Below the pieces are notes generated by a model, which saw only the letters and a list, made by a program, of their open reading frames with translations, was not told where the DNA came from and did no database searches. This document shows positions 27,564 to 43,065 of a stretch of DNA of 64,000 bases, piece by piece (the stretch's first letter is position 1; every line of letters starts with the position of its first letter). Source of the stretch: an uncultured Verrucomicrobiota bacterium (GTDB lineage Bacteria; Verrucomicrobiota; Verrucomicrobiia; Opitutales; Intestinicryptomonadaceae); the NCBI GenBank assembly GCA_949293415.1, contig CASFDK010000044.1:124001-188000 (forward strand), given 5' to 3'. The position numbers and the translations under genes were made by a program.

Positions 27564-29090
27564 CTATTTGTATAATTCGGGGTTTATTCCGAGTTTCTTT
27601 ATTTTATAGAGAATTATTCTTTGGGTTGCGCCGAGATGTTTTGCGGCGGCGGAGGCGTTGCCCTTTTTCAGTTTCAACGCCTCGACGATAAGTTCCTTTT
27701 CGAAGCTCGACACAAGCGATTCGTAGTCGCCGCCCGTTGCCGTCGGCGCGAGCGATGTCTCGGTAATTTCCGCGGTCTGCAGCGACGGCGGCAGATTGTA
27801 GCCGCTTATCACGTTGTCGGAGGTATTGAGCACGGCGTATTCTATGCAATTCTCGAGTTCGCGCACATTCCCCGGCCAATAGTACGATGTCATCATATTT
27901 ATTGCGGGAGTCGAAATGCGCACAATCTGTTTCGAGTGGATTGCAGTGTATTTGCGCAGAAAATATTCGGCGAGCAGAACGATGTCGCTCTTTCGATTGC
28001 GTAGGGCGGGCATATAAATCGGGAAGACGTTCAGGCGGTAGTACAAGTCTTCGCGGAAAGAGCCCGAATGAATCATCTCTTCGAGATTGCGGCTCGTCGC
28101 CGCGATTATTCGCACGTCAACCTTGCGCTCCTCGTTTCCGCCTACGCGGTAGAAGGTGTGTTCCTGAATGAAACGCAGAAGTTTCAGTTGCATCGGCAGG
28201 GAAAGGTCTCCGATTTCGTCGAGAAAGAGCGTGCCCTTGTCGGCGAGTTCCGCCAGACCGATTTTACGGTTGACAGCTCCGGTAAAAGAGCCTTTTTCGT
28301 GTCCGAACAGTTCGCTTTCAATAAGTCCCTCGGGAAGCGCGGCGCAGTTTACCACGATGAACGGATTGTCCCTGCGCAGCGAGTTGCGCTGGATTGCCTT
28401 CGCCACAAGCTCCTTGCCCGTGCCCGATTCGCCGCGAATGAGAACGGTTGCGTTCGATGCGGCGACCTTCGAAATCATCATGTAGACCTTTTTCATATTG
28501 CTGCTGTTGCCGATGATTTCGGTCGGGCGCAGCTTGTTCTCGAGCTCGAGCTTGAGGGCGCGGCTTTCGCTCAAAAGTTTTTCCTTTTCCTCGTGCTCCG
28601 AATATGCGGCGAATATTGCGTCCGCCATAATGTTTGCGATGGTCTCGAGCAGGTGGTAGTCCGCCTTGAGGTCGGTGTCTTTTTCGACTTTTCTGTCTAT
28701 GCTCAGCGTTCCGATAACGTCGTCTTTATAGACAATCGGCACGCAGATAAACGCCACGTTTTTTTCGCCGTCGCGCGCACGGGTACGGTTGAGAAAGCCC
28801 TTTTCCTTGGAGATGTCGGGGATGATTTTGCCCCGCCCCGTCGCGGCGACCTGCCCGGTGATTCCCTCGCCTACGCGGTAAAGCCCCCTGTCGATTTCGG
28901 CGCGACTCAAGCTTTCGGAAGCTTCAATTATCAGAACATCGCCCTCGCGCAGAGTCAGAGTTCCGCGCAACAAGCCCATTTCGAGGTGGAGAATTTTCAG
29001 CACCTCTTTGAGCATATCCGGTACACTTGAACGCAATGCAACGAGGTGGCTTATTTTATTTAAAACCGCTATTTCGACGTGTAGACTCAT
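27564..29090 (-). CDS. NifA-like sigma-54-dependent activator (GAF-AAA+-Fis)
   Basis: The 508-residue enhancer-binding protein has an N-terminal GAF sensor (about 20-165, [14 protein letters not shown]), a central AAA+ domain with Walker A GESGTGKE (220-227), the sigma-54 contact loop as GSFTGA (267-272, usually GAFTGA), Walker [12 protein letters not shown], sensor [13 protein letters not shown] and [10 protein letters not shown], and a C-terminal Fis-type helix-turn-helix ([20 protein letters not shown]). This is NifA/FhlA architecture. No nif genes occur here. It is third in the operon gltB-gltD-regulator, 27 bp after gltD, and both the operon and divergent glutamine synthetase have sigma-54 promoters, so it probably controls ammonia assimilation, sensing 2-oxoglutarate or similar (inference). 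Confidence 0.93.
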
Positions 29091-29117: not shown

Positions 29118-30545
29118 CTACTTTATGAGATTTCTCAAATAGGAGTCAACACCGGATGCCGAATTTTTGCCCGAGCAAATCGCCTTTACGACAAGCGAAG
29201 GTCCGGTTATAGAGTCGCCCGCGGCGAAAACGCCCTCGATGTTTGTGGAGAAGTCGGGGGCGACGTTTATCATCGAGCGCGGCGTAAGCATAATGCCGAG
29301 ACTGTCGACAATTCCGTGCTGTTCGACACCCGTAAAGCCCATACTCAGAAGAATCAAATCGGCTTCGATTTTGAATTTGGAATTAGGGCGTTCGGTGAAC
29401 GATTTAGGGCGTCCGTCTGCGTCGAACTGCCAGTCGCAGGCGACCAGCGAAGCCGACTTCGCCGCGCCAGACTTTCCGTGGATTTCCTTGACGTTTACCG
29501 CCCACATACGTTTGCCGCCCTCGAGGTGGCTGCTCGACGTGCGCAGCTTGTAGGGCCATTCGGGCCACGGTGTGGAACTGTGGCGTTCCTTCGGCGGTTC
29601 GGGCATAATTTCGACCTGCGTAACCGACTTCGCGCCCTGACGGAACGCCGTTCCCATGCAGTCGCTGCCAGTGTCGCCGCCGCCGATTATCAGGACGTTT
29701 TTTCCTTTTGCGGAAATTGTCGGTGCGCGCAGCTCGCCCGAGTTTGCGCGGTTCTGCGATGTCAAAAATTCGAGCGCGAAGTGCACGCCGTCGAGATTCC
29801 GACCCGCGACGTTTTCGCCGAGTCCGCGCGGAATCTGCGTACCGAGGCAAAGACAGATTGCGTCGAATTTTCTGCGCAGGTATTCGGCGGAAATGTCCAC
29901 GCCTATTTCAATCCCGCCCTCGAAAAGGATTCCAGAGCTCGAAAGGATGTCGATGCGCCGTTCGACGACGCTTTTTGCAAGCTTGAAATCGGGAATGCCG
30001 TATCGAAGGAGTCCGCCGAAATTGTTGTTTTTTTCGAAAACCACAACCTCGTGCCCGCACTTGTTGAGCGCGTCAGCCGCCGCAAGTCCGGAGGGTCCGG
30101 AGCCGATGACCGCAACGCGCATGCCCGTGTGGCGGTAGGGTTTGTAGGGTTCGACATAGCCCTTGCGAAAGGCGTTTTCGATAATCGCGTATTCTATTTG
30201 CCGAATCGCCACGGGCGACGACGGCACCCCCGCGCAGCACGCCGCCTCGCAGAGGGCGGGGCAGACGCGCGAAGTGAATTCGGGGAACGGAGATGTTTCC
30301 GAAAGAACGTAGTAGGCGTCGCGCAGGCGGTTTTCGTTGACCGCCTTGTTGAATTCCTGAATGGAGTTCCCGAGCGGGCATCCCGCTCCGTGGCAGAACG
30401 GAATTCCGCAACCCATGCAGCGTTTCGACTGGCGTTCGACAATTTCCTCGAGGGACGGATGAACCTCGACCTCGTTGAAATCGCCCAACCTGTCGTCTCT
30501 GTAGCCCCAATCGGGGCGCGGAATATTCAGGAAATCGGATGACAT
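29118..30545 (-). CDS. gltD: Glutamate synthase (NADPH) small subunit
   Basis: The 475-residue flavoprotein supplies electrons to the large GOGAT subunit. The N-terminal cluster cysteines are in CMGCGIPFCHGAGCP and RVCPALCEAACCAG. Two nucleotide-binding folds follow: FAD (VAVIGSGPSGLAAADAL) and NADPH (KNVLIIGGGDTGSDCMG), then GVFAAGDSITGPSLVVKAI near the C-terminus. Size and motifs match the bacterial beta subunit. It starts 3 bp after gltB. Confidence 0.96.
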   Translation of the reverse strand: MSSDFLNIPRPDWGYRDDRLGDFNEVEVHPSLEEIVERQSKRCMGCGIPFCHGAGCPLGNSIQEFNKAVNENRLRDAYYVLSETSPFPEFTSRVCPALCEAACCAGVPSSPVAIRQIEYAIIENAFRKGYVEPYKPYRHTGMRVAVIGSGPSGLAAADALNKCGHEVVVFEKNNNFGGLLRYGIPDFKLAKSVVERRIDILSSSGILFEGGIEIGVDISAEYLRRKFDAICLCLGTQIPRGLGENVAGRNLDGVHFALEFLTSQNRANSGELRAPTISAKGKNVLIIGGGDTGSDCMGTAFRQGAKSVTQVEIMPEPPKERHSSTPWPEWPYKLRTSSSHLEGGKRMWAVNVKEIHGKSGAAKSASLVACDWQFDADGRPKSFTERPNSKFKIEADLILLSMGFTGVEQHGIVDSLGIMLTPRSMINVAPDFSTNIEGVFAAGDSITGPSLVVKAICSGKNSASGVDSYLRNLIK

Positions 30546-30548
30546 AAC

Positions 30549-33500
30549 CTAAACGTGCTTGATTGTTTCTTTTACTTCGTCGCCGCCGACGAGCTTTCCG
30601 AGAACTTTTCTGTATTCAATCGGGAAGACCTTTACGAATTTCGGCAGCTCGTTTTCCCAGTTGTCGAGAATCGCCTTTGCGCGCTTCGAACCCGTGGAGA
30701 TTTGGAAGTCTTCGACAAGCGCGCGCAATTCGTGGTCGTCCGCCGAATCTTCTACAACGCTTTCCAAGTCGACCGACTGCAGGTTGCAGCGCATATCGAA
30801 ATTGCCGAGTTCGTCGTAGACGTACGCGAAGCCGCCCGTCATACCCGCCGCGAAGTTGAAGCCCGTCGGACCGAGACATACCACGCGCCCGCCGGTCATA
30901 TACTCGCAGCAGTGGTCGCCCACGCCCTCGACTACGAAAGTCGCGCCGCTGTTTCTGATTGCGAAACGCTCTCCCGCCTTGCCGTTGACGAACACCTTGC
31001 CGCTCGTCGCGCCGTAGCCGATAACGTTGCCGGCTATGACGTTCGAAGAGCTGTCGAGCTTCGAATCCTTCGGCAGACGCACGACGATTGTGCCGCCCGA
31101 AAGGCTCTTGCCCATATAGTCGTTGGCTTCGCCCTCGAGGACGAATGTCGCGCCCGATGCGAGGAACGCGCCGAAGCTCTGTCCCGCAACACCCGAGAAG
31201 TTTATCTTGATTGTGTCGGCGGGAAGTCCGACGTGTCCGTACTTGCGGGCGATGTGGTTTGCTAGCATCGCGCCGACGCTTCGGTCGGAATTCCTTATCG
31301 GCATCGAGATTTCGATCGGCTCGCCGCTTTGGATGTTGGCTTCGACCTGCGCGAGAATCTTCTTGTCGTAGGCGTCCTTGAGCTCGCGCGGGGCTAGACC
31401 CGCGCTGCGGCGCGGAAGGGAGTCGTCTCCGACCCGTTCGAAAATCTTCGAGAAGTCCAGATTCTTCGACTTCCAGAATTCGATTGCCTCGTTGGTTTCG
31501 AGAAGGTCGCTTCTGCCGACCGCCTCGTCTATCGAGCGCAGACCGAGCGAAGCGAGAATTTCGCGGACTTCGTTTGCGATGAACCGCAGGAAGTTCTCGA
31601 TATGTTCGGGCTTTCCCTTGAAGCACTTTCTGAGCTTCGGGTCTTGCGTTGCAACGCCGACGGGGCATGAATTGTCGTGGCACTTGCGCATCATCACGCA
31701 GCCGAGCGTTACGAGGATTGCGGTCGCGAAACCGAATTCCTCCGCGCCGAGCAACGCGCCGATTACAACGTCGCGCCCAGTCTTCATCTGCCCGTCGACC
31801 TGTACGCGAATCTTGTCGCGCAGACCGTTGAGACGCAGTGTCTGCTGCGCTTCGGCAATGCCCAGTTCCCACGGCAAGCCCGCATACTTGATACTCGTAA
31901 GGGGCGACGCGCCCGTGCCGCCGTCGTGTCCGCTGATGAGAACGACGTCCGCCTTCGCCTTTGCAACGCCCGCGGCGACAGTGCCCACGCCGACTTCCGA
32001 AACGAGCTTTACCGATACTCTTGCCTGCTCGTTTGCGTTGCGCAGGTCGTAGATGAGCTGCGCCAAGTCTTCGATTGAGTAGATGTCGTGGTGCGGCGGC
32101 GGCGAGATGAGCGTTACGCCTGCGGTTGCGTGGCGGACACGCGCGATAATCTCGTTGACCTTGTAGCCGGGGAGCTGACCGCCCTCGCCGGGCTTTGCGC
32201 CCTGAGCAACCTTGATTTGCAGTTCCTTTGCGTTTGCCAGATATTCAGCGGTTACGCCGAAACGTCCGCTTGCAACCTGCTTGATTGCGCTGGAAATGTC
32301 GCCCTCCCTGCCGATTTTCGCATAGCGCGCGGGGTCTTCGCCGCCCTCGCCGCAGTTGCTCATACCGCCGAGCTTGTTCATCGCAAGCGCGATTGTCTCG
32401 TGCGCTTCGGGGCTGATTGAGCCGAAGCTCATCGCGCCGGTTACGAAGCGGTGTATGATTGATTCTACTGGTTCCACCTCGTCGAGCGGAATCGCCTTTG
32501 CGGGCTTGAACTTGAACAATCCGCGAAGCGTGCACAAGTGGTGCGCCTGATTGTTGATGAACTCGGCGTACTGGCGGTACTTCGACTCGTCGCCCTCGCG
32601 GACAGCCCGCTGAAGCAGCGTGATTGTCTGCGGAGTCCAGAGGTGGTGTTCGCCGTCCTTCTTGAACTTGTACTTGCCCGAGTTTTCGAGAACGTTTTCG
32701 AAGTTCGGCTTCGGATAGTGTGCGTTGTGGTAGCGAGCCAAAGACTCGCTTGCGATTTCCGTAAGACCTATGCCGCCGATGCGCGAAGCCGTGGGCGCAA
32801 AATACTTGTCCACAAGCCCGCGTCCCAAGCCGACGGCTTCGAAGACCTGCGCCTGACGGTAGCTGCGAAGTGTCGAAATACCCATCTTCGACATGACCTT
32901 GAGGATGCCCTTGCAGATTGCCTTGATGTAGTTTTCAACCGCGCCCGCCGCGTCTATACCCTTGATGCGCCCGTCTTCGACCATATTGGCGATGCTTTCG
33001 ATGGCAAGGTACGGATTGATTGCCGTTGCGCCGTACCCCAAGAGCAGGCAGAAGTGCGCAATCTCTCGCGCCTCGCCGGTTTCGGCGACGATACCCGCGC
33101 TCGTGCGCATATTTTTTTCGACTAAATGCCTGTTGACTGCGGCTACGGCAAGAAGCATCGGAATCGGCGCGTGCCCGTAGGAGAGATTCTTGTCGCTGAG
33201 TATGATTACGCTCTTGCCGTCGCGGACAGCCTGTTCGGCTTCGGAGCAAATGCGGTCGAGAGCCATTTCAAGACCGTGTGCGCCGCCCGCCGCCGAAAAT
33301 TCGGCGAGAATCCTGCGCGCTTGGAAGTTCTCCACCTTCGAAGTGCAGAGGCAGTTTACGTCGCGGTTTGCGAGAATCGGGTGCGGAAGCTTCAAGAGGT
33401 GCGCGTGCGAGGGAAGCTCGACAAGCGTGTTGCCCTGATTGCCGATGTAGGTCATAAGACTCATCACGAGCCTTTCGCGAATCGGGTCGATAGGCGGATT

Positions 33501-35078
33501 TGTTACCTGCGCAAAGAGCTGTTTGAAGTAGTCGTAGAGCAGCTGCGGCTTGTCGGACAAAACCGCGAGCGCGGCGTCGTTGCCCATCGAGCCTGTCGGC
33601 TCCTGACCGTTTTCCGCCATCGGGCGCAAAATCAAATCCATATCCTCGGACGAATAGCCGAAGAGCTTCTGTCGCTGCAGAAGGTTTTCGCCGACAATCG
33701 GGTCGGGCACGGATTCGAAAATGCCGCTGAGCGTAATGCGGTTGTCGTCAACCCATCTGCGGTAGGGCTTTGCGCGCGCGACGAGCGTCTTGATTTCCTT
33801 GTCGAATAGAATCCTGTGCTTTTCGAGGTCGAGGTAAATCATCTCGCCCGCGCCGAGCTTGCCGCGGCGCAAAACGCGCTCTTCGGGGATGTCGAGCACG
33901 CCCGTTTCCGATGCCAGAACAAACAAGCCGTCGGAACAGATTGTGTAGCGCGCGGGGCGCAAACCGTTGCGGTCGAGCAGTGCGCCCGCCCTCGTTCCGT
34001 CCGTGAACGCCAACGCCGCGGGACCGTCCCACGGTTCGGACACACCCGAATTGTATTCAAAGAATCCCGCGATGTCCTTGCTGACGTAGAAATTCTTGCC
34101 CCACGCCTGCGGAACGAGCATGAGCATTGTGTGCGCCAAAGTCCTGCCCGCCGACGCATAGAGTTCTACGGCGTTGTCGAGACAGGCGGAGTCACTCTGG
34201 TTCTCGCGGATTACGGGAATGACCTTCGAGATGTTCTCGCCGAACAGCGGCGATTCGAAGTGCGTTTCGCGCGAACGCATCTGGTTGAGGTTGCCGCGCA
34301 GCGTGTTGATTTCGCCGTTGTGCGCCAAATATCTGAACGGCTGGGCGAGCTGCCAAGTCGGGAAAGTGTTGGTGCTATAACGTTGGTGGACGAGCGCGAG
34401 CGCGCTCTTGTACGACTTGTCGAAGAGGTCGGGAAAGAACGCCTTAAGCTGCGGCGCGTTCAGCAAGCCCTTGTATACAATTGTGCGACACGAAAGCGTG
34501 CAAATGTAGAACGAATCGCCCGCCGCGGGAACTTTCGCGTCGACACCCTTTTCGATTACGCGGCGCAAAACGTAAAGGGCGCGTTCGAAATCGGCTTCGC
34601 TTCTGCCGTTGCGTCCGGATACGAAAACCTGTTCGATGCGCGGGCAGGTTGCGAGCGCAACACCGCCGATTGCCGATTCGTCGACGGGAACTTTTCTCCA
34701 AGTTATTACCGACATTCCCTCGTCGGAGATTGCCGCTTCGCAAACCGCCCTGCACTTCTCGGCAAGCTCGGCGTCGCGGGGCAGGAAAATCATACCCACG
34801 GCATAGTCGCCCGCAGGCGGAAGCGCGGGAACTTTGTTTCTGAAAAACTCGTCGGGGATTTGCGTCATAATACCCGCGCCGTCGCCCGTTTGCGAATCGC
34901 CGCCGACCGCACCCCTGTGCATAAGGCGTTCCAAAATCTGCACGCCGTCTTCGACTATCGAATGCTTTTTAACGCCGTTGATGTCGGCGACCATTCCGAC
35001 GCCGCAGGCGTCGTGTTCGTTTGCGGAATTATACAGCCCTTGAGGCTGCGGATAGTAACTGTTTTGTTCTTGTTGCAT
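30549..35078 (-). CDS. gltB: Glutamate synthase large subunit
   Basis: The 1509-residue enzyme makes two glutamates from glutamine and 2-oxoglutarate. The Ntn glutaminase domain starts at Cys25 (EHDACGVGMV), which becomes the nucleophile after removal of a 24-residue propeptide. The central region, FMN-barrel synthase domain (GAMSFGSISPEAHETIALAM, GEGGEDPARY), the 3Fe-4S cysteines (CVMMRKCHDNSCPVGVATQD) and the C-terminal beta-helix domain (GERFAIRNSGATFVVEG) are in order. The frame stays open to 35114, but that codon lies inside the sigma-54 promoter, so ATG at 35078 is the start. Confidence 0.97.
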   Translation of the reverse strand: MQQEQNSYYPQPQGLYNSANEHDACGVGMVADINGVKKHSIVEDGVQILERLMHRGAVGGDSQTGDGAGIMTQIPDEFFRNKVPALPPAGDYAVGMIFLPRDAELAEKCRAVCEAAISDEGMSVITWRKVPVDESAIGGVALATCPRIEQVFVSGRNGRSEADFERALYVLRRVIEKGVDAKVPAAGDSFYICTLSCRTIVYKGLLNAPQLKAFFPDLFDKSYKSALALVHQRYSTNTFPTWQLAQPFRYLAHNGEINTLRGNLNQMRSRETHFESPLFGENISKVIPVIRENQSDSACLDNAVELYASAGRTLAHTMLMLVPQAWGKNFYVSKDIAGFFEYNSGVSEPWDGPAALAFTDGTRAGALLDRNGLRPARYTICSDGLFVLASETGVLDIPEERVLRRGKLGAGEMIYLDLEKHRILFDKEIKTLVARAKPYRRWVDDNRITLSGIFESVPDPIVGENLLQRQKLFGYSSEDMDLILRPMAENGQEPTGSMGNDAALAVLSDKPQLLYDYFKQLFAQVTNPPIDPIRERLVMSLMTYIGNQGNTLVELPSHAHLLKLPHPILANRDVNCLCTSKVENFQARRILAEFSAAGGAHGLEMALDRICSEAEQAVRDGKSVIILSDKNLSYGHAPIPMLLAVAAVNRHLVEKNMRTSAGIVAETGEAREIAHFCLLLGYGATAINPYLAIESIANMVEDGRIKGIDAAGAVENYIKAICKGILKVMSKMGISTLRSYRQAQVFEAVGLGRGLVDKYFAPTASRIGGIGLTEIASESLARYHNAHYPKPNFENVLENSGKYKFKKDGEHHLWTPQTITLLQRAVREGDESKYRQYAEFINNQAHHLCTLRGLFKFKPAKAIPLDEVEPVESIIHRFVTGAMSFGSISPEAHETIALAMNKLGGMSNCGEGGEDPARYAKIGREGDISSAIKQVASGRFGVTAEYLANAKELQIKVAQGAKPGEGGQLPGYKVNEIIARVRHATAGVTLISPPPHHDIYSIEDLAQLIYDLRNANEQARVSVKLVSEVGVGTVAAGVAKAKADVVLISGHDGGTGASPLTSIKYAGLPWELGIAEAQQTLRLNGLRDKIRVQVDGQMKTGRDVVIGALLGAEEFGFATAILVTLGCVMMRKCHDNSCPVGVATQDPKLRKCFKGKPEHIENFLRFIANEVREILASLGLRSIDEAVGRSDLLETNEAIEFWKSKNLDFSKIFERVGDDSLPRRSAGLAPRELKDAYDKKILAQVEANIQSGEPIEISMPIRNSDRSVGAMLANHIARKYGHVGLPADTIKINFSGVAGQSFGAFLASGATFVLEGEANDYMGKSLSGGTIVVRLPKDSKLDSSSNVIAGNVIGYGATSGKVFVNGKAGERFAIRNSGATFVVEGVGDHCCEYMTGGRVVCLGPTGFNFAAGMTGGFAYVYDELGNFDMRCNLQSVDLESVVEDSADDHELRALVEDFQISTGSKRAKAILDNWENELPKFVKVFPIEYRKVLGKLVGGDEVKETIKHV

Positions 35079-35107: not shown

Positions 35108-35123
35108 AGCACATTCCGTGCCA
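35108..35123 (-). promoter_or_regulatory. gltB: Sigma-54 promoter of gltB-gltD-regulator
   Basis: On the minus strand TGGCACG-GAAT-GTGCT has a perfect -24 element and exact spacing between the GG and GC dinucleotides; only the first base of the -12 TTGCW differs. It would start transcription near 35097, about 20 nt before ATG at 35078. Confidence 0.85.
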
Positions 35124-35264
35124 ATTTTGTCGCGTTTTTTACAACAGTTTGATTTTCAATAAAAACCGCCCAAAACACGTAATTATTACAATTTTGAAGC
35201 ACAATACCAAAATCCGATTACGACAATTTTGTAGCACACCCCGAAAATGTCATTACAAAATTGT
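35121..35264. promoter_or_regulatory. Repeated ACAAwwTTGT sites, candidate activator-binding (enhancer) elements
   Basis: ACAATTTTGA at 35188-35197 and ACAATTTTGT at 35223-35232 are both followed by AGCACA; ACAAAATTGT lies at 35255-35264 in the opposite orientation, and a degenerate CCAATTTTGT at 35121-35130. The three good sites are spaced 35 and 32 bp centre to centre, about 70-150 bp from one sigma-54 promoter and 145-220 bp from the other, typical enhancer distances. Confidence 0.55.
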
Positions 35265-35406
35265 CGCAACATATTTGTCGATAAAGCCGCAAATGACGGT
35301 TTTGAAAATTGACTTTTACGCGCAAAGCGACATTCTCGCCCCCTATATATAATATACATCGCATTTCGGGAATGAAAACGGCTCGGATACATCAAAAGCA
35401 AAAAAC

Positions 35407-35422
35407 TGGCACGCCATCTGCT
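35407..35422 (+). promoter_or_regulatory. glnN: Sigma-54 promoter of glutamine synthetase
   Basis: TGGCACG-CCAT-CTGCT matches the -24/-12 consensus with exact spacing (GG at 35408-35409, GC at 35420-35421). The expected transcription start is near 35433, 32 nt before the ATG. Confidence 0.88.
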
Positions 35423-35464: not shown

Positions 35465-37603
35465 ATGAACGCAAGAAAAGAAGCATTGACCAGAATTTCG
35501 GGAGCCCCAAAGGTCTACGAAAATCTGGAAACTCCGTACGACATCGACTCCGAATACGGTGTCGATACCTTCGGACTGAAGAGAATGGAGGCGTACCTGT
35601 CGAAGCCCATCTACCAGAGACTTCGCAAAACAATCGAACAGGGTGTAGCCCTCGACTCCGCCGTTGCCGACGACGTTGCGCACGCAATGAAAATCTGGGC
35701 GATGAGCCGCGGAGCGACGCATTACACGCACTGGTTCCTGCCCCTTACGGGCGCGAGCGCGGAAAAACACGACGCATTCCTCGACCCCACTAAAGAAGGA
35801 CACGCAATCACACGCTTCTCGGGCAAAAACCTCATCTTGGGCGAACCCGACGCGTCGAGTTTCCCCTCGGGCGGTCTGCGCTCAACTTTCGAAGCCCGCG
35901 GCTACACTGCTTGGGACCCCACAAGCCCCGCATTCATCAAGCGCGTCGGCGGCGTCGCAACGCTGTGCATCCCCACGATGTTCTGCTCGTACACGGGCGA
36001 AATGCTCGACAAAAAGACCCCGCTTCTGCGTTCCATACAGGTTCTCGGTGCGCAGACAAAACGTCTGATGAAGTGCTTCGGCATCGAAGAGGACGTGCAC
36101 GCAAACGTAACACTCGGCGCGGAACAGGAATACTTCCTCGTAGACCGCGAGCTCTACGTGCAACGCCCCGACCTCATGCAGACGGGCAGAACGCTCTTCG
36201 GCGCGCCGCCGCAAAAGCATCAGCAGCTTGAAGACCACTACTTCGGCGCAATCAAGCCGCGCATTATCAACTTTATGCACGACGTAGACTTGGAATTGTG
36301 GAGAATCGGCATCCCCGCCAAGACCCGCCACAACGAAGTCGCGCCCGCGCAGTTTGAAATCGCGCCCGTGTTCGAAGAACTGAACTTGGCGACCGACCAT
36401 AATATGATGATTATGGAAATTCTGCGCAATGTAGCGGAAAAGCACGGTCTTGTCTGCCTGCTCCATGAAAAACCCTTCTCGGGAATCAACGGCTCGGGAA
36501 AGCACAACAACTGGTCCATTTCCTACGGCGACAGAAACCTGCTCAACCCCGGCTCGAATCCGCACGAAAACGCTATATTCCTCACCACGCTCTGCGCGGT
36601 CATTCAGGCGGTCGACAAACACGCCGACCTGCTCCGCTCGGCAACGGCAGGCGCAGGCAACGACCACCGTCTGGGTGCGAACGAAGCTCCGCCCGCGATT
36701 ATCTCTATGTTCCTCGGCGAACAGCTTGCCGACATTATCGACCAAATCGAAGCGGGCGAAGCCAAGAGCTCGAAGAACAGCAAGTTCCTGAAGGTCGGCG
36801 TTGACACCCTGCCCCCGCTCCCCACGGACGCCACGGACAGAAACCGTACAAGCCCCTTCGCATTCACGGGCAACAAATTCGAATTCCGCGCGGCGGGTTC
36901 GTCGCAGTCGTGCGCAAGCCCGAATATCGTGATGAACACGATTGTTGCGGAAGCGTTCGACGAAATCTCGACGGAACTCGAAAAGCTCCCCAAGAAAGAT
37001 TTCCAAAAGGGTCTGCAAAAGATTCTGCAGGCAATCGTAAAAAAGCACAAGAGAGTCATCTTCAACGGCGACGGCTACAAGGAAAATTGGAAGAAGGAAG
37101 CCGCAAAGCGCGGTCTGCCCAACCTGCCCAATACTCCCGCGGCACTCGAACCGCTCAGAGACCCGAAGAACATCGAACTTTTCAGGAAATACGGCGTATT
37201 CAATTCGAGCGAAATGCTCTCCAGATACGAAGTATTTATGGAAGAGTACTGCAAGAAGGTTCACATCGAAACGGCTCTTGCCCTGAACATCTCCAAGACA
37301 ATCATAATGCCCGCTGCGGAAAAATACCTCTCGCAACTGGCTGCGACAGCCAAGAACGTCGCCGAAGCAAAATTCGGCAGGAACAAGGCTCTGGAGGCAA
37401 AGGGCAAACTGATAAACTCGCTTGTGGAATCGCTCGGCGCGGCGAACGAAAAGCTCGAAGCTCTGGTGGTTGCGAACGCCGAACCGCTCAAGAAATTGGT
37501 GGCAATGGGCGATGTCCGCACGATTGTGGACAAGCTGGAAGTGGAAGTCGACGACGCCCAATGGCCGCTTCCGAAGTACTCCGAACTGCTCTTCATCTAC
37601 TAA
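35465..37603 (+). CDS. glnN: Type III glutamine synthetase
   Basis: The 712-residue enzyme makes glutamine from glutamate, ammonia and ATP. Its length and signatures are those of GSIII (GlnN), not the 450-residue GSI: the N-terminal KVYENLETPYDIDSEYGVDT, the metal-site LGAEQEYFLVD, THYTHWFLPLTG, NEVAPAQFEIAPVFEE, SGKHNNWSI and a long C-terminal helical region. GSIII forms double-ring dodecamers and is common in Bacteroidota and cyanobacteria. An AAGGAAA ribosome-binding site precedes the ATG. It is divergent from gltBD and has its own sigma-54 promoter and terminator. Confidence 0.96.
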   Translation: MNARKEALTRISGAPKVYENLETPYDIDSEYGVDTFGLKRMEAYLSKPIYQRLRKTIEQGVALDSAVADDVAHAMKIWAMSRGATHYTHWFLPLTGASAEKHDAFLDPTKEGHAITRFSGKNLILGEPDASSFPSGGLRSTFEARGYTAWDPTSPAFIKRVGGVATLCIPTMFCSYTGEMLDKKTPLLRSIQVLGAQTKRLMKCFGIEEDVHANVTLGAEQEYFLVDRELYVQRPDLMQTGRTLFGAPPQKHQQLEDHYFGAIKPRIINFMHDVDLELWRIGIPAKTRHNEVAPAQFEIAPVFEELNLATDHNMMIMEILRNVAEKHGLVCLLHEKPFSGINGSGKHNNWSISYGDRNLLNPGSNPHENAIFLTTLCAVIQAVDKHADLLRSATAGAGNDHRLGANEAPPAIISMFLGEQLADIIDQIEAGEAKSSKNSKFLKVGVDTLPPLPTDATDRNRTSPFAFTGNKFEFRAAGSSQSCASPNIVMNTIVAEAFDEISTELEKLPKKDFQKGLQKILQAIVKKHKRVIFNGDGYKENWKKEAAKRGLPNLPNTPAALEPLRDPKNIELFRKYGVFNSSEMLSRYEVFMEEYCKKVHIETALALNISKTIIMPAAEKYLSQLAATAKNVAEAKFGRNKALEAKGKLINSLVESLGAANEKLEALVVANAEPLKKLVAMGDVRTIVDKLEVEVDDAQWPLPKYSELLFIY

Positions 37604-37792: not shown

Positions 37793-38491
37793 TTAAACAA
37801 GGAAAGCTTCCGCAAGCAGTTTTTCGTCATCCATAACCTCGGCGGTTTTGCCGAATGCGGACAGTTTGCCGTTTGAAAGCACTGCGCTATACTGGCAGAC
37901 TTTTGCGGCGAAGTCCAAATCGTGCGTGCTAAGCAGAGCGGTCTGCGGAAGACGCGCAAGCATTTGGGCGCATTCGCGGCGGCTGCGCGGGTCGAGCAAT
38001 GACGACGGCTCGTCCAAAAGCAGTACCTCGGGGCTGCACGCAAGGGCGGAGCATATGGCAGCCTTCTTTTTTTCGCCGTCGGAAAGTTCCTGCGGTCGTC
38101 TTTCCGCCAAACGGGCTATCCCGAAATCGGCAAGCAACTTTTCGGATTGCGCCCGCGCGGAGTCCTCGGATTCGCCGCGGTTCAAAGCCCCGAACATCAC
38201 GTCTTCGACGACGGTCGGGAAAAACAGCTGGTCGTCGGGGTTCTGGAAAACGAGCGCGGCTTTGCGCCGAATCAGCGAAGCGTTGCGCCTTTCCACCCGT
38301 ATTTTATCGATGAAGATTTCGCCTGCCGAGAGCGGCAAAAGCCCCATTATGGACAACAAAAGTGTTGTCTTGCCCGCGCCGTTCGCCCCCAGAACAGCGC
38401 AACGCGCGCCGCGCGGAACGCGGAACGAAACGGAATCGAGCGCGGGAGCCGCGCCGTTTCTTACAACGGAAATGTTTGCGATTTCAACCAC
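37793..38491 (-). CDS. cbiO: ECF-type cobalt/nickel importer ATPase CbiO
   Basis: The 232-residue ABC ATPase has Walker A GANGAGKTTLL, Q-loop FQNPDDQLFFPTVVEDV, signature LSDGEKKKAA, Walker B VLLLDEPSSLLD and switch His in STHDLDF. The FQNPDDQLF phrase is typical of ECF ATPases. GTG at 38491 is preceded by GGAGGG at normal spacing, and the gene overlaps the end of cbiQ by 8 bp; an ATG-like open frame upstream runs inside cbiQ. It is the last gene of the operon. Confidence 0.93.
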   Translation of the reverse strand: MVEIANISVVRNGAAPALDSVSFRVPRGARCAVLGANGAGKTTLLLSIMGLLPLSAGEIFIDKIRVERRNASLIRRKAALVFQNPDDQLFFPTVVEDVMFGALNRGESEDSARAQSEKLLADFGIARLAERRPQELSDGEKKKAAICSALACSPEVLLLDEPSSLLDPRSRRECAQMLARLPQTALLSTHDLDFAAKVCQYSAVLSNGKLSAFGKTAEVMDDEKLLAEAFLV

Positions 38492-39287
38492 AGAAAAGCC
38501 CTCCCCAAAGCCGAACGGGGTCGGCGAATCTGGCAAATGCGCAGAGGGTACAGAAAACCGCCGCAAATAAAATATCGGAAATTTTGACAGGCAATGATTT
38601 CGAGCGGTACGCCCGCGCGTCGAAGCCCCTGCATTTCATCGCCCTGTAAACCGACTCGGCCCTATCGATGCTGCGTAGCATCAGCGAGGTTATAACGTGC
38701 GGGAAATGGCGGAATTCCACGAACTTCGAATCGGGAGAGCGCAGCAAATAGGCGCGCACGACCCTGCGGGCTTCGTCCGAGATAGTCTCGAGGTAGCGCG
38801 TGGTCATCATCAGCTGCACGACTATTACGCACGGAATTTTGAATTTTCCCAACGCCGCCGAAACGTCGTTTGTCGGCGTGCACCGCGCAAAAAGCAACGC
38901 CGCCGACACGCACAAAAACGTCTTCAAAAGCAGAACCGCAAGCGATACTGTACCGCCCGAAATCGGCAGCGAAAATATTTCGCAAACACACCGCCTGTCG
39001 AGAAACGGATTCGCCGCCCCCGCAAATCCGACGAGAATCAACGCGGGCAGCGAACGCCGAAAAATTGCCCCGAACGGCACGCCCAAAACCGCACCGCCCA
39101 AAAGCGGAAGCGCGAACAGCGGAACAAGTCCCGAAATATCGTACTTTCCGAACGAGACCGTACAGGTCAGAAAAATCAGGAGCGACAAAAGTTTTGCGCA
39201 CGGATTGAGCGAACGGCAAAAATGCTCGGCGGCTGCCGCGCCCGCCGAACAAAAACCCGCCTGTGTTTTGTCAACCCGCACGTTCAC
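38484..39287 (-). CDS. cbiQ: ECF transporter transmembrane protein CbiQ
   Basis: The 267-residue T-component has five to six membrane helices and the two ATPase-coupling Ala-Arg-Gly type motifs (YLETISDEARRVVRAYLLRS and LRSIDRAESVYRAMKCRGFD). It couples CbiO to the substrate-binding CbiM. The start at 39287 overlaps the end of cbiM by 17 bp, so all three importer genes are coupled. Confidence 0.93.
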   Translation of the reverse strand: MNVRVDKTQAGFCSAGAAAAEHFCRSLNPCAKLLSLLIFLTCTVSFGKYDISGLVPLFALPLLGGAVLGVPFGAIFRRSLPALILVGFAGAANPFLDRRCVCEIFSLPISGGTVSLAVLLLKTFLCVSAALLFARCTPTNDVSAALGKFKIPCVIVVQLMMTTRYLETISDEARRVVRAYLLRSPDSKFVEFRHFPHVITSLMLRSIDRAESVYRAMKCRGFDARAYRSKSLPVKISDILFAAVFCTLCAFARFADPVRLWGGLFCG

Positions 39288-40260
39288 TCCCCCGCGCGGT
39301 TTTTACAATTCGCGAAAACGCAAGCAGCGCAAGCGCGGTCAATCCGCCGCCTACAAGCCCCGAAACCGATGTGCCCGCCGCGCTTTCGCCGTCCGAAAAG
39401 GAATAGTCGGGCAGAATTGCGGTCTTTTCCGCAAGATCTTTGCCGAACGAATGCGCGGGCGAATCGGTGCGGATTTCGGCGTTCGACGTTTCGGCAATCG
39501 ACCATTCCAAGCCGTCGGGTTTTTCCGAGGCAAGCTGCGAAAATCCCGCCCCCGCAAGCAGCGCGGCAATCAAAAAGAATCCGAACGAAACTTTGCGGGC
39601 GGGGACGAAACCCGCCTTTGAACCGTCGGCGAAAAGCGAAGGCCGCGCGTCTTTCAAAAGCGAGAGAACCGCCGCCGTCGCAAGGCCTTCGACAAGCCCA
39701 ATCGGCAGATGTATCGGCAGCATAAACGCGGCGAATGTACCGAATGGAAGTTCGGTGATGTCGGAACAGAGCGTTTCGAGCACAACCGCGAACGCGCCGA
39801 GCTGAAGCGAAACCACGCACGCGGCCACCGCCGCCACCGTCAGCCCCGTACGCGACTTGAACCTGCGCGCAATCGGCAGGAATACGAGCGGATACGCCAC
39901 AAGACACGAAAAAAACGCCATATTGAAGATGTTGCAGCCCAACGCCAAAACGCCGCCGTCGGCGAAAAAGAACGCCTGAACAATCAGCACGCACGAGAGC
40001 ACGACAAAGGCTGGATACGCGCCGAGTATTGCGGCGAGCAAAATTCCGCCCGCGATGTGCCCGCTCGAGCCCGTCATCGGAATTGCGAAATTTATCATCT
40101 GCGCGGCGAAGACAAACGCGCCCATCACCCCCGCGAGCGGAACGTTGAAATTGTCGAAGTTCTCGGATGTTTTGCGCGAAGCGAACAAAAGCAGCCCCGC
40201 TGAGACCGCCAACATTATGAGCGCCGTCCGCACCGAAAGAAGCGCGTCCGCCATATGCAT
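39271..40260 (-). CDS. cbiM: Nickel/cobalt ECF substrate-binding protein CbiM fused to a PDGLE domain
   Basis: The 329-residue protein joins a CbiM/NikM core (about 1-225: PMTGSSGHIAGGILLAAILG, GCNIFNMAFFSCL, HLPIGLVEGLATAAVL) to a C-terminal CbiN/PDGLE-type unit (residues about 235-329, SEKPDGLEWSI and two helices). In NikM/CbiM the metal sits on the N-terminal Met-His, so ATG at 40260 (MHMADALL) is chosen over the frame start at 40284. Neighbouring NPN-cofactor genes point to nickel as the metal; cobalt is possible. There is no cobalamin gene nearby. Confidence 0.9.
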   Translation of the reverse strand: MHMADALLSVRTALIMLAVSAGLLLFASRKTSENFDNFNVPLAGVMGAFVFAAQMINFAIPMTGSSGHIAGGILLAAILGAYPAFVVLSCVLIVQAFFFADGGVLALGCNIFNMAFFSCLVAYPLVFLPIARRFKSRTGLTVAAVAACVVSLQLGAFAVVLETLCSDITELPFGTFAAFMLPIHLPIGLVEGLATAAVLSLLKDARPSLFADGSKAGFVPARKVSFGFFLIAALLAGAGFSQLASEKPDGLEWSIAETSNAEIRTDSPAHSFGKDLAEKTAILPDYSFSDGESAAGTSVSGLVGGGLTALALLAFSRIVKTARGSERAG

Positions 40261-40287
40261 CGCCATTATGGGATTTACAATCATTTT

Positions 40288-41031
40288 CTACGAAATTCTA
40301 TTTACAAGGTGCGCGTTGTACGCCGCACCGAAACCGTTGTCGATATTCACAATGCTCACGCCGTTTGCGCACGAGTTTATCATAGAGAGCAGAGCGGCGA
40401 GCCCGCCGAAGTTCGCGCCGTATCCCACGCTTGTGGGCACGGCGATTACTGGCACTTTCACAAGCCCCGCAAGGACGCTCGCAAGCGCGCCCTCCATTCC
40501 CGCAATCGCAATCACGGCCGACGCGCCGCGGATTTCGTCGATGCGAGAAAGCAGTCTGTGAAGCCCAGCCACGCCGCAATCACAATACAATTTCGTGCGG
40601 CTGCCGAAAAAGTTCGCGGTAAACTCGGCCTCTTTCGCAACGCGCATATCCGACGTTCCCGCGCTGACGATTGCGATGTGCGAAGTGCCGACACGCGGAT
40701 TTTCCGCGCCTATGCGCATAATCTCGGCGGCCGGCTCGTACACCGATTCGGGAAATTCCGCCGCAAGCACCGACGCTTTTTGCGCCTCGATGCGTGTCAG
40801 GAGCACGCCGCCCTGCCTGCGCAAAATCGCGCGGCAGATGTCGGCGCATTGGGCGGCAGTTTTCGACTGTGCGAATACGACTTCTCCCATCCCCGTACGC
40901 GAAAGCCTGTCGAAGTCTGGCACGCTGTGCCCGAGATCGGACGAGAAAAAGTTTTGAATTTGCGCGTTTGCGGTCGCGCAGTCGATTTTCCCGTTTTTGA
41001 AATCGTTTAAAATTTTCGAAAAGTCGTTCAT
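40288..41031 (-). CDS. larB: LarB, pyridinium-3,5-biscarboxylate mononucleotide synthase
   Basis: The 247-residue enzyme carboxylates nicotinate adenine dinucleotide at C5 and cleaves off AMP, the first step of nickel-pincer nucleotide synthesis. The PurE-like C-terminal half is clear: AIVSAGTSDMRVAKEAEFTA, VIAIAGMEGALASVLAGLV and VIAVPTSVGYGANFGGLAAL. The N-terminal half carries the LarB-specific FAQSKTAAQCADICRAIL. The longer open frame that reaches 41625 is larE in another frame. It overlaps larE by 4 bp. Confidence 0.95.
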   Translation of the reverse strand: MNDFSKILNDFKNGKIDCATANAQIQNFFSSDLGHSVPDFDRLSRTGMGEVVFAQSKTAAQCADICRAILRRQGGVLLTRIEAQKASVLAAEFPESVYEPAAEIMRIGAENPRVGTSHIAIVSAGTSDMRVAKEAEFTANFFGSRTKLYCDCGVAGLHRLLSRIDEIRGASAVIAIAGMEGALASVLAGLVKVPVIAVPTSVGYGANFGGLAALLSMINSCANGVSIVNIDNGFGAAYNAHLVNRIS

Positions 41032-41819
41032 TGCACTACGTTCATCGAGCCGCGTTTGTAGCCCGCCAAATCGAGCGAGCAGTGTTTGAAACCGAGCGAT
41101 TGGGCGAACGCGCAAATGCGCTCCGCGCCGTCCAAGATTTTCCGGAAGTCCGACGGCACACATTCTATGCGCACGGTTTCCGATTCCACACGCGCGCGGA
41201 CAGCCAGCACGAAGTTTGCGCGCAGAAACGATTCGAACTTGTCGATTTTCGAGAGCGTCCGCACGTCGATTTTTTCGCCGTGGACGAGGCGGGTAAGCAG
41301 ACACGCATACGCGGGCTTGTCGGCGACAGCCATCCCGAAACCGTGCGCGATTTCGCGGATGTCGGACTTTCCCAAGCCGCATTCGAGAAACGGGCTTACA
41401 ACCGACAGTTCGCGCAACGCCCGCATCCCCGGTCTGTAATCGGAAAGGTCGTCGGCGTTCGTGCCGTCGCAGAGTGTGCCGAAACCGCGTTGTTCGGCTA
41501 CGGTTTTGAACTCCGAAAAAATCGCGCGCTTGCAAAGATAGCAGCGGTCGGGCGGATTGAAAAGTATCTCTTCGGGAATTTCGGAACGCGAAATTTCGGG
41601 GTGCTCCACGCCGAGTTTGCGGCAAAGCGCGGCAGCGTCGAAAATTTCGTCCGCCATCGTGTAGGGGGTACGGGCGGTCAGCGCGAGACAGTTTCCGCCG
41701 CCGAGAACTTTTGCGGCAACGGCGAGCAAAACCGAGCTGTCCAATCCGCCCGAAAGCGCGACGGCAACCCTGCCCTTCGGTTTCAGGAACGCGCCGAGTT
41801 TGTCAAGCTTCGTATTCAT
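41028..41819 (-). CDS. larE: LarE, pyridinium biscarboxylate sulfurtransferase
   Basis: The 263-residue PP-loop ATPase adenylates the two carboxylates and inserts sulfur. The PP-loop is SGGLDSS (23-29), with CYLCK and the LarE motif KPAYACLLTR. Cys173 there corresponds to the sacrificial cysteine (Cys176) of the Lactiplantibacillus enzyme, so each protein may be used up, unless it carries the 4Fe-4S-type chemistry of other homologues. Its 5' end overlaps larC by 17 bp and its 3' end overlaps larB by 4 bp. Confidence 0.95.
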   Translation of the reverse strand: MNTKLDKLGAFLKPKGRVAVALSGGLDSSVLLAVAAKVLGGGNCLALTARTPYTMADEIFDAAALCRKLGVEHPEISRSEIPEEILFNPPDRCYLCKRAIFSEFKTVAEQRGFGTLCDGTNADDLSDYRPGMRALRELSVVSPFLECGLGKSDIREIAHGFGMAVADKPAYACLLTRLVHGEKIDVRTLSKIDKFESFLRANFVLAVRARVESETVRIECVPSDFRKILDGAERICAFAQSLGFKHCSLDLAGYKRGSMNVVQ

Positions 41820-43065
41820 TTCGCACGATTCTTCCCACCTCCGCCAACGGAATGTTTTTTTCGCGGGCGATTTTTTCGCAGTCGTCGAATTCGGGCTTGA
41901 TTTTTCCCGCGCCTCCGAAATCCGAAATTTTCAGGCGAACCGTTCCGAGCGACGATTCGAAAGCGACGACTTTGCGGTGCAACGCCGCGCGGTCGATTTC
42001 CGAAATTCTAACGCCGAGCGTGGAGGTGTTCGCGAAAATGCATTCTAAAAGTTTTTGTCTGTCGGCGGCGTGCGCGAGCACGCAAAGCTTCGCGGCGGCG
42101 CGGGATTTTTTCATTGCAATCAGCTCCTGCCAGACATCCGCCGCGCCCGATTCCAGAAGGCGCGAGCGGGCATAGGCAAGCTCCTCAGGCGTCATATCGT
42201 CGATGTTTGCGGCAAGCAAAAACATTTTCTCGGTTTCGTATTCCGCCGCCGAACCGCCGCTTTCGACGAGCATAACGCGCAGGATATTCGGAAGCTCGGA
42301 CGAATCCCTATGCCCTATTCCTGTGCCCGTTGCGAGAATTTTTCCGCGCGGCGCGGCGGACTGGTTGCCGCAGAGAGCCGCGATAATCGCAGCCCCCGTA
42401 GGGGTTGTGCACTCGTGGCGCGCCCCGTTTATTTTCACCGAAAAGCCGCGCAGAATTTCGGCGGTTGCGGGCGCGGGCACGGGCAGAATGCCGTGGGCGC
42501 AACGCACCGTTCCGCCGCCGAGTTCTATTTCCGAGCAGGCGAAATTTTCAATGCCGAGCAGGTCGGCACAAATAGCCGCGCCCACAATATCGACAATGGA
42601 ATCGAGCGCGCCGACTTCGTGGAAGCACACTTCGGAAATATCCCTGCCGTGTATTTTGGCTTCGGCGGCGGCTATCCTGTCGAAAATTTTCAGCGACAGC
42701 TTTTTTGCGTTTTCCGAAATACCCGACGAGTTGACGATTTTCACGATTTCGGAATACGGTCTGTGTTCGTGCGTATGCGCGGAAAATTCGGAATGCGGGT
42801 ATGTATGTCCGTGTTCGCGGGAGTGGTCGCAGGAAGGGATACGGTTGTGCCCGCCGCAATCGGTTTTTTCGGAGAGGACGACATCCGCCCGCGTCCCGAA
42901 AATCCCCGAGCGAGAGTCTTTCGAAAATTCGATTCGCCATCCGTCCAAGTTCAGCTTGCCAAGTTCGGAGACGAGCCGCTCGGCATCCGCGCCCATATCG
43001 ACGAGCGCGCCGAGATTCATATCTCCGCTGATTCCCGCGAAGCAGTCGTAATAAAGTGTTTTCAT
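41803..43065 (-). CDS. larC: LarC, nickel-insertion cyclometallase
   Basis: The 420-residue enzyme inserts nickel into the bis-thiocarboxylate to complete the NPN cofactor, using CTP. Motifs: YYDCFAGISGDMNLGALVDM at the start, HEVGALDSIVDIVG, ELGGGTVRCAHG and ANIDDMTPE. A His-rich insert (about 79-103, DHSREHGHTYPHSEF and AHTHEH) probably binds nickel. Unlike L. plantarum, where larC1 and larC2 are joined by ribosomal frameshift, it is one uninterrupted frame. It overlaps nadD by 4 bp. Confidence 0.95.
   Translation of the reverse strand: MKTLYYDCFAGISGDMNLGALVDMGADAERLVSELGKLNLDGWRIEFSKDSRSGIFGTRADVVLSEKTDCGGHNRIPSCDHSREHGHTYPHSEFSAHTHEHRPYSEIVKIVNSSGISENAKKLSLKIFDRIAAAEAKIHGRDISEVCFHEVGALDSIVDIVGAAICADLLGIENFACSEIELGGGTVRCAHGILPVPAPATAEILRGFSVKINGARHECTTPTGAAIIAALCGNQSAAPRGKILATGTGIGHRDSSELPNILRVMLVESGGSAAEYETEKMFLLAANIDDMTPEELAYARSRLLESGAADVWQELIAMKKSRAAAKLCVLAHAADRQKLLECIFANTSTLGVRISEIDRAALHRKVVAFESSLGTVRLKISDFGGAGKIKPEFDDCEKIAREKNIPLAEVGRIVRNEYEA

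Follow-up and report, generated by a model that had tools for sequence, protein, structure and literature searches.

Divergent sigma-54 promoters for glutamate synthase and type III glutamine synthetase in an uncultured gut Verrucomicrobiota bacterium, with a candidate NifA/AnfA-type activator

In proteobacteria, NtrC is the usual activator of ammonia-assimilation genes. The NtrB/NtrC-RpoN regulon (glnA, glnK-amtB) resembles the locus described here in its RpoN promoters with a remote enhancer pair and in its ammonia-assimilation targets, which include P-II and Amt. The two differ in the regulator and its sites: the linked activator of our locus carries a GAF domain in place of the receiver domain, its gene lies within the gltBD operon, the putative sites are [G/T]AC-N6-GT[A/C] palindromes rather than the NtrC site, and the glutamine synthetase is of type III (GSIII).

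A second group of related systems comprises NifA, AnfA and VnfA, which have the same domain order and paired dyads upstream of a -24/-12 element. AnfA is a GAF-AAA-HTH activator with a proven binding site, TAC-N6-GTA, at R. capsulatus anfH, and two sites per promoter are required for its full activity (PMC7294313). The palindromes of our locus fit a dyad close to this one and with the same spacing. In contrast to NifA, the activator found here scores below the NifA cut-off, and the NifA site TGT-N10-ACA, although present between the promoters, is not conserved in relatives; it differs from VnfA/AnfA or redox-sensing NifA in lacking a cysteine cluster; and the targets are GS-GOGAT, GlnK and Amt instead of nitrogenase genes.

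The sigma-54 regulons predicted in a survey of 2025 include those of Opitutia, where nitrogen metabolism is weakly enriched, in some genes related to nitrogen fixation (PMC12316311). Glutamate synthase goes unmentioned in the main text of the survey, and for class Opitutia we found in its available text neither a named activator nor an enhancer site nor a promoter pair for GS-GOGAT. For Methylacidiphilum, the available text of an earlier report lists ntrB/ntrC genes with measured expression and gives no promoter wiring (PMC3404531). The open-access literature yielded no account of this activator or of the gltB/GSIII promoter pair; thus, the promoters are of a familiar kind, and the wiring of gltB, GSIII and activator is without an earlier account for the lineage in that literature. 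The reading that we hold with good confidence is that of a shared two-way RpoN region run, via the palindromes, by the gltBD-linked NifA/AnfA-type one-component activator.

Promoters in the gltB/GSIII gap

The window (the whole stretch of DNA that was analysed, 64,000 nucleotides) contains the two divergent operons on either side of a 386-bp gap. The features of this region are as follows.

27538-27519, minus strand: terminator-like hairpin 3' of the activator gene (consensus match only)
27564-29090, minus strand: gene for a NifA-like GAF-AAA+-Fis-type activator of 508 aa (Pfam PF00158, GAF, HTH_8), 27 bp past gltD
29118-30545, minus strand: gltD, glutamate synthase small subunit (TIGR01317, 519 bits, above cut-off), 3 bp past gltB
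30549-35078, minus strand: gltB, glutamate synthase large subunit (NCBIfam NF008730, 1760 bits; Pfam GATase_2/Glu_synthase/GXGXG)
35123-35108, minus strand: sigma-54 promoter of the gltB-gltD-activator operon, TGGCACGGAATGTGCT, GG-N10-GC, predicted start about 35097
35309-35314, plus strand: TTGACT, candidate -35 of a second GSIII promoter, TTTTGAAAATTGACW-type, weak and with no good -10
35407-35422, plus strand: sigma-54 promoter of GSIII, TGGCACGCCATCTGCT, GG-N10-GC, predicted start about 35433
35465-37603, plus strand: GSIII, type III glutamine synthetase of 712 aa (Pfam PF12437 GSIII_N, PF18318)

The activator gene occupies third place in the gltB operon, co-directional with gltBD, and no terminator-like hairpin was called on the minus strand between gltD and this gene. 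This gltBD-activator order is retained in G002, in G008 and in L087, an Opitutales MAG. Among named relatives, the nearest are MAGs of uncultured gut Opitutales/Verrucomicrobiota.

Each promoter element has GG-N10-GC with the TGGCAC...TGC core of a sigma-54 promoter and one mismatch to TGGCACNNNNNTTGCW. The minus-strand element is 30 nt from gltB and the plus-strand element 43 nt from GSIII; the predicted starts were derived from the usual 12-nt spacing after the -12. The original prediction placed the gltB start codon at 35078 instead of 35114, and this choice is supported, as the ATG at 35114 falls within the -24/-12 element. That ATG is upstream of the predicted transcription start, and an N-terminal extension of the 35114 type is not seen in relatives. 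Read from 35078, gltB begins MQQEQNSYYPQPQGLY.

Pattern counts say little about such elements. A loose sigma-54 pattern (two mismatches) occurs 11 times in the window against 10.6 expected, which is no enrichment. Across the 2.32 Mb genome, a pattern search finds 13 matches to the strict form TGGCAYNNNNNNTGCW and 10 to its reversed control. A lone match is therefore little proof, and the case had to rest on conservation. The outward-facing pair in the 386-bp intergenic region is itself far from chance: an outward-facing match on each strand of the gap appeared in none of 20,000 dinucleotide shuffles, with about 0.002 matches expected.

Conservation of the gltB element settles the reality of the promoters. 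The element is kept in 13 of the 13 family genomes with readable upstream DNA, which are the source genome (G000) and others of the same genus (G001, G002, G003, G005, G006, G007, G008 and G011) together with members of the same family (G014, G016, G017 and G018); presence and absence calls here and below rest on MAGs that are 79-97% complete, the gltB upstream region of G012 is unreadable at a contig end, and G010, for which no search gave a hit, is outside all counts. The gene opposite gltB is GSIII or glnK, each with its own -24/-12 element. In G008, G011 and G018 it is glnK, followed by amt and GSIII; among the readable same-genus genomes with GSIII opposite gltB, glnK carries a -24/-12 element of its own, 30-39 nt from its start. 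The GSIII element is likewise conserved in relatives that share the gene order. Among 34 family promoters, TGG, CA and TGC are nearly invariant (GG and GC being required by the search) and CTGCT is preferred on the -12 side. Two genomes of another family in the same order, L292 and L293, have a single -24/-12 element before GSIII, and neither activator nor palindromes nearby. Positions, shuffles and family conservation together bear out the divergent GG-N10-GC elements that were first proposed for this region.

The sigma factor itself is also at hand. The gene rpoN was detected in 33 of the 36 genomes searched, including the source genome, where all three sigma-54 domains were found (activator-interacting, core-binding and DNA-binding); the objection that the original prediction had named against itself, a genome without rpoN, thus falls away.

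Sigma-70-like matches also occur in the gltB/GSIII region; a search there for known RNA families found none. The TTTTGAAAATTGACW-type sequence TTTTGAAAATTGACT at 35309 is common to G004, G005, G007 and G008, and in two of the four relatives sharing the TTTTGAAAATTGACW element GSIII is without sigma-54 elements. On this comparison, the GSIII gene may have a second, housekeeping promoter at 35309.

The candidate activator and the palindromes

The more informative parts of the locus are two that the original prediction missed: the gene for the activator, and the palindromes resembling enhancers. The activator's closest profile is nifA (TIGR01817), to which it scores 459.6 bits, under the cut-off of 528.85, and its closest solved chain, matched over the full length, is 9qq6, 'Nif-specific regulatory protein' (E 8e-99). 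It carries a GAF domain, no receiver domain, an intact GSFTGA loop and intact Walker A/B motifs; this GAF-AAA+-Fis-type HTH architecture with a GAFTGA-type loop places it in the broad NifA/AnfA/VnfA family. Neither the GAF domain nor the linker has a cysteine cluster. With only three scattered cysteines (Cys116, 249 and 415), the protein is unlikely to contain an AnfA/VnfA-type iron-sulphur oxygen sensor; by analogy with the NifA family, the GAF domain probably reads nitrogen status.

The genome encodes four AAA+ activator-like proteins of this type. The sigma-54 activators with a GAFTGA-type loop are C44 (GSFTGA) and C12 (GAFTGA), the latter an orphan response-regulator activator with a receiver domain and a strong Fis-type HTH. 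In the GAF-type paralogues C43 (L076:3178-4764) and C22 (L077:2273-3853), the GAFTGA loop is gone, and these proteins have probably ceased to act with sigma-54. Thus, only the gltBD-linked activator and C12 look sigma-54-competent.

Between the two promoters, or overlapping one of them, lie the following putative sites.

35120-35133, minus strand: half-palindrome over the gltB -24 box, GCGACAAAATTGGC
35185-35206: weaker palindrome copy, ATTACAATTTTGAAGCACAATA, 35 bp from palindrome 1, lacking in most relatives
35220-35235: palindrome 1, putative activator site, ACGACAATTTTGTAGC, core ACAATTTTGT at 35223-35232, centre 106 bp from the gltB -24
35252-35267: palindrome 2, putative activator site, ATTACAAAATTGTCGC, core ACAAAATTGT at 35255-35264, centre 148 bp from the GSIII -24

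Palindromes 1 and 2 share the consensus [G/T]ACAAWWTTGT[A/C], are 32 bp apart and recur in relatives, where pairs about 29-35 bp apart are found at gltB/GSIII, at gltB/glnK and at glnK-amt. Aligned palindromes give [G/A]C[T/G]ACAAWWTTGT[A/C]G[C/T], of which the core was imposed by the search. In a genome-wide pattern search, the core ACAAWWTTGT has 13 matches against 2 for the reversed pattern. The number of palindromes per genome does not follow the presence of the activator, as G004, without it, has 12; pairs about 29-35 bp apart are a better signature than counts, and none occurs among the twelve G004 matches listed. A comparison of 11 genomes by eye shows the half-palindrome on the gltB side in 7 of them and no copy on the GSIII side. 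From this placement over the -24 box, it is a possible self-repression site.

In the mechanism that we infer, from binding of the activator at the palindromes through looping and signal to the direction of control and transcription itself, RpoN polymerase would wait at both outward-facing -24/-12 promoters of the gap. The activator made from the gltB operon would bind the palindrome pair, loop to the promoters and open both. The signal would probably be nitrogen status, received via the GAF domain either directly or through P-II. Being encoded in its own target operon, the activator would exert a self-amplifying control, which the half-site over the gltB -24 box might cap. The same activator would serve glnK-amt and probably the porin/TRAP operon described below. 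Judged from these sequences, a one-component NifA/AnfA-type activator likely takes NtrC's job for the regulon of GS-GOGAT, GlnK and Amt.

Comparison of genomes and other explanations

A different activator could be proposed: that C12, an NtrC/AtoC-like regulator, activates both sigma-54 promoters and the NifA-like gene has another role. NtrC-type activators are usual for such genes in proteobacteria, and the receiver domain, intact GAFTGA and strong HTH of C12 would suit it to the task; however, it is unlinked to nitrogen genes, the neighbouring 2.5-3 kb or so contain no evident kinase, and an NtrC-type site (TGCACC / GCAC-N7-GTGC) is absent between the promoters. Natural comparisons bear further on the choice. 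G004 retains rpoN and a regulator of the C12 type. It lacks gltB together with the orthologues of the activator and of glnK, and its GSIII has neither the sigma-54 element nor the palindromes; a C12 homologue thus persists where the promoter and its sites do not. In G009, gltB is absent and the activator is kept, with palindromes 33 bp apart directly upstream of the activator gene and a divergent TGGCATAAAACTTGCT beyond the pair. In L088 (a single MAG labelled Lentisphaeria, whose label or binning may be wrong), the activator is 62% identical and divergent from GSIII, and the gap between them contains a palindrome pair 31 bp apart and TGGCACGCGATTTGCT. The palindromes of G009 and L088 therefore accompany the GAF-type activator gene, which speaks against C12. 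The comparisons of G004, G009 and L088 favour the gltBD-linked activator, and we regard activation by C12 as very unlikely.

In two Kiritimatiellae MAGs (L091:9700-9990 and L094:6900-7160), the glt and GSIII genes likewise have sigma-54 elements arranged back to back; these again are single MAGs whose label or binning could be in error. The TTACA-N5-TGTAA-like repeats between these elements, identified by eye, are one base longer than those of the source genome.

The palindromes could instead serve an unrelated transcription factor such as a repressor, while the sigma-54 activator binds elsewhere. Such a factor would account for the similar palindrome before gdhA, where there is no -24/-12 element and which also occurs in the activator-less G004; yet a GAFTGA-less paralogue with a related HTH could read the gdhA site. 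Moreover, palindrome pairs with near-helical spacing are found upstream of sigma-54 elements family-wide, palindromes flank the activator gene in G009 and L088, and the dyad spacing is the same as AnfA's. We find an unrelated factor quite improbable. Finally, the idea that the -24/-12 elements are chance matches or pieces of ordinary sigma-70 promoters, to which the weak genome-wide enrichment of the strict pattern and the sigma-70-like matches might lend something, deserves almost no credence given the shuffles and the conservation in 13 of 13 genomes at both gltB and glnK/GSIII.

Control by the gltBD-linked activator through the palindromes would provide a testable and complete nitrogen-control wiring for uncultured gut Verrucomicrobiota, consisting of RpoN, one activator, one palindrome and about four targets; going by single MAGs, the wiring would also exist in genomes labelled Lentisphaeria and Kiritimatiellae. 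An NtrC role held by a NifA/AnfA-type activator would bear on how nitrogenase activators arose from general regulators of nitrogen, or gave rise to them.

Further targets, gdhA and P-II

In the source genome, glnK-amt has a palindrome upstream together with the sigma-54 element TGGCACGCCGTCTGCT. A porin-like gene with a gene for a TRAP-type solute-binding protein after it (L066:3950-5010) has a palindrome 119 bp upstream and the sigma-54 element TGGCACGCGGTCTGCT; on the strength of this combination, the porin/TRAP operon is a possible fourth target of the activator.

The original prediction put the whole ammonia-assimilation pathway under RpoN. This holds for GS-GOGAT, which by its promoters is very probably under RpoN control, and not for gdhA, before which no -24/-12 element was found in the genus; to judge from its upstream DNA, gdhA is apparently not RpoN-driven. 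A comparison of this DNA in 14 genomes (L274-L287) shows instead a conserved TTGAC and a TGTACAWWWWTGTA-type palindrome about 100 bp before the start (148 bp in G002). This palindrome occurs in nearly all genus members, including G004, and was not called in G014. In the source genome, the region in question is at G000:C36:52199 and 52234.

Since the palindrome is kept in G004, which has no activator, probably at least one other protein reads a similar site; our guess from the sequences is that the one at gdhA is read by such a protein, which may be a paralogue lacking GAFTGA and having a related HTH. A more specific and rather doubtful version is that the RpoN activator runs GS-GOGAT/GlnK/Amt and a GAFTGA-less paralogue runs the gdhA housekeeping promoter via the near-identical TGTACAWWWWTGTA. 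If true, a duplicated activator would have split into RpoN and non-RpoN branches that balance two ammonia routes.

The T-loop tyrosine of P-II is the normal uridylylation site. The GlnK of the amt operon (L067:5711-6052) has RGNEIEV in its T-loop versus RGSEYTV, and has lost the tyrosine of the uridylylated type; in the P-II of the amt operon, this position is I, T or R. Because the tyrosine is lost, signalling by the P-II of the regulon probably differs. A second, stand-alone P-II (L226) keeps the T-loop tyrosine, and a GlnD-type domain was found in the genome.

Elsewhere in the genome, TGGCAC-N6-TGCT elements stand about 14-20 bp before the start codons of dnaK (L068:2487-2502) and clpB (L078:2403-2418). 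They are too close for a normal leader and are perhaps chance matches.

Beyond GSIII, at 37793-43065, the window further contains a gene group with an ABC transporter of the ECF type that includes a CbiM component (Pfam). Beside the transporter are genes with Ni_insertion (LarC-like), ATP-PP-loop (LarE-like) and AIRC (LarB-like) domains (Pfam), and by these domain assignments the group probably serves a nickel-pincer cofactor and includes a nickel uptake system of its own.
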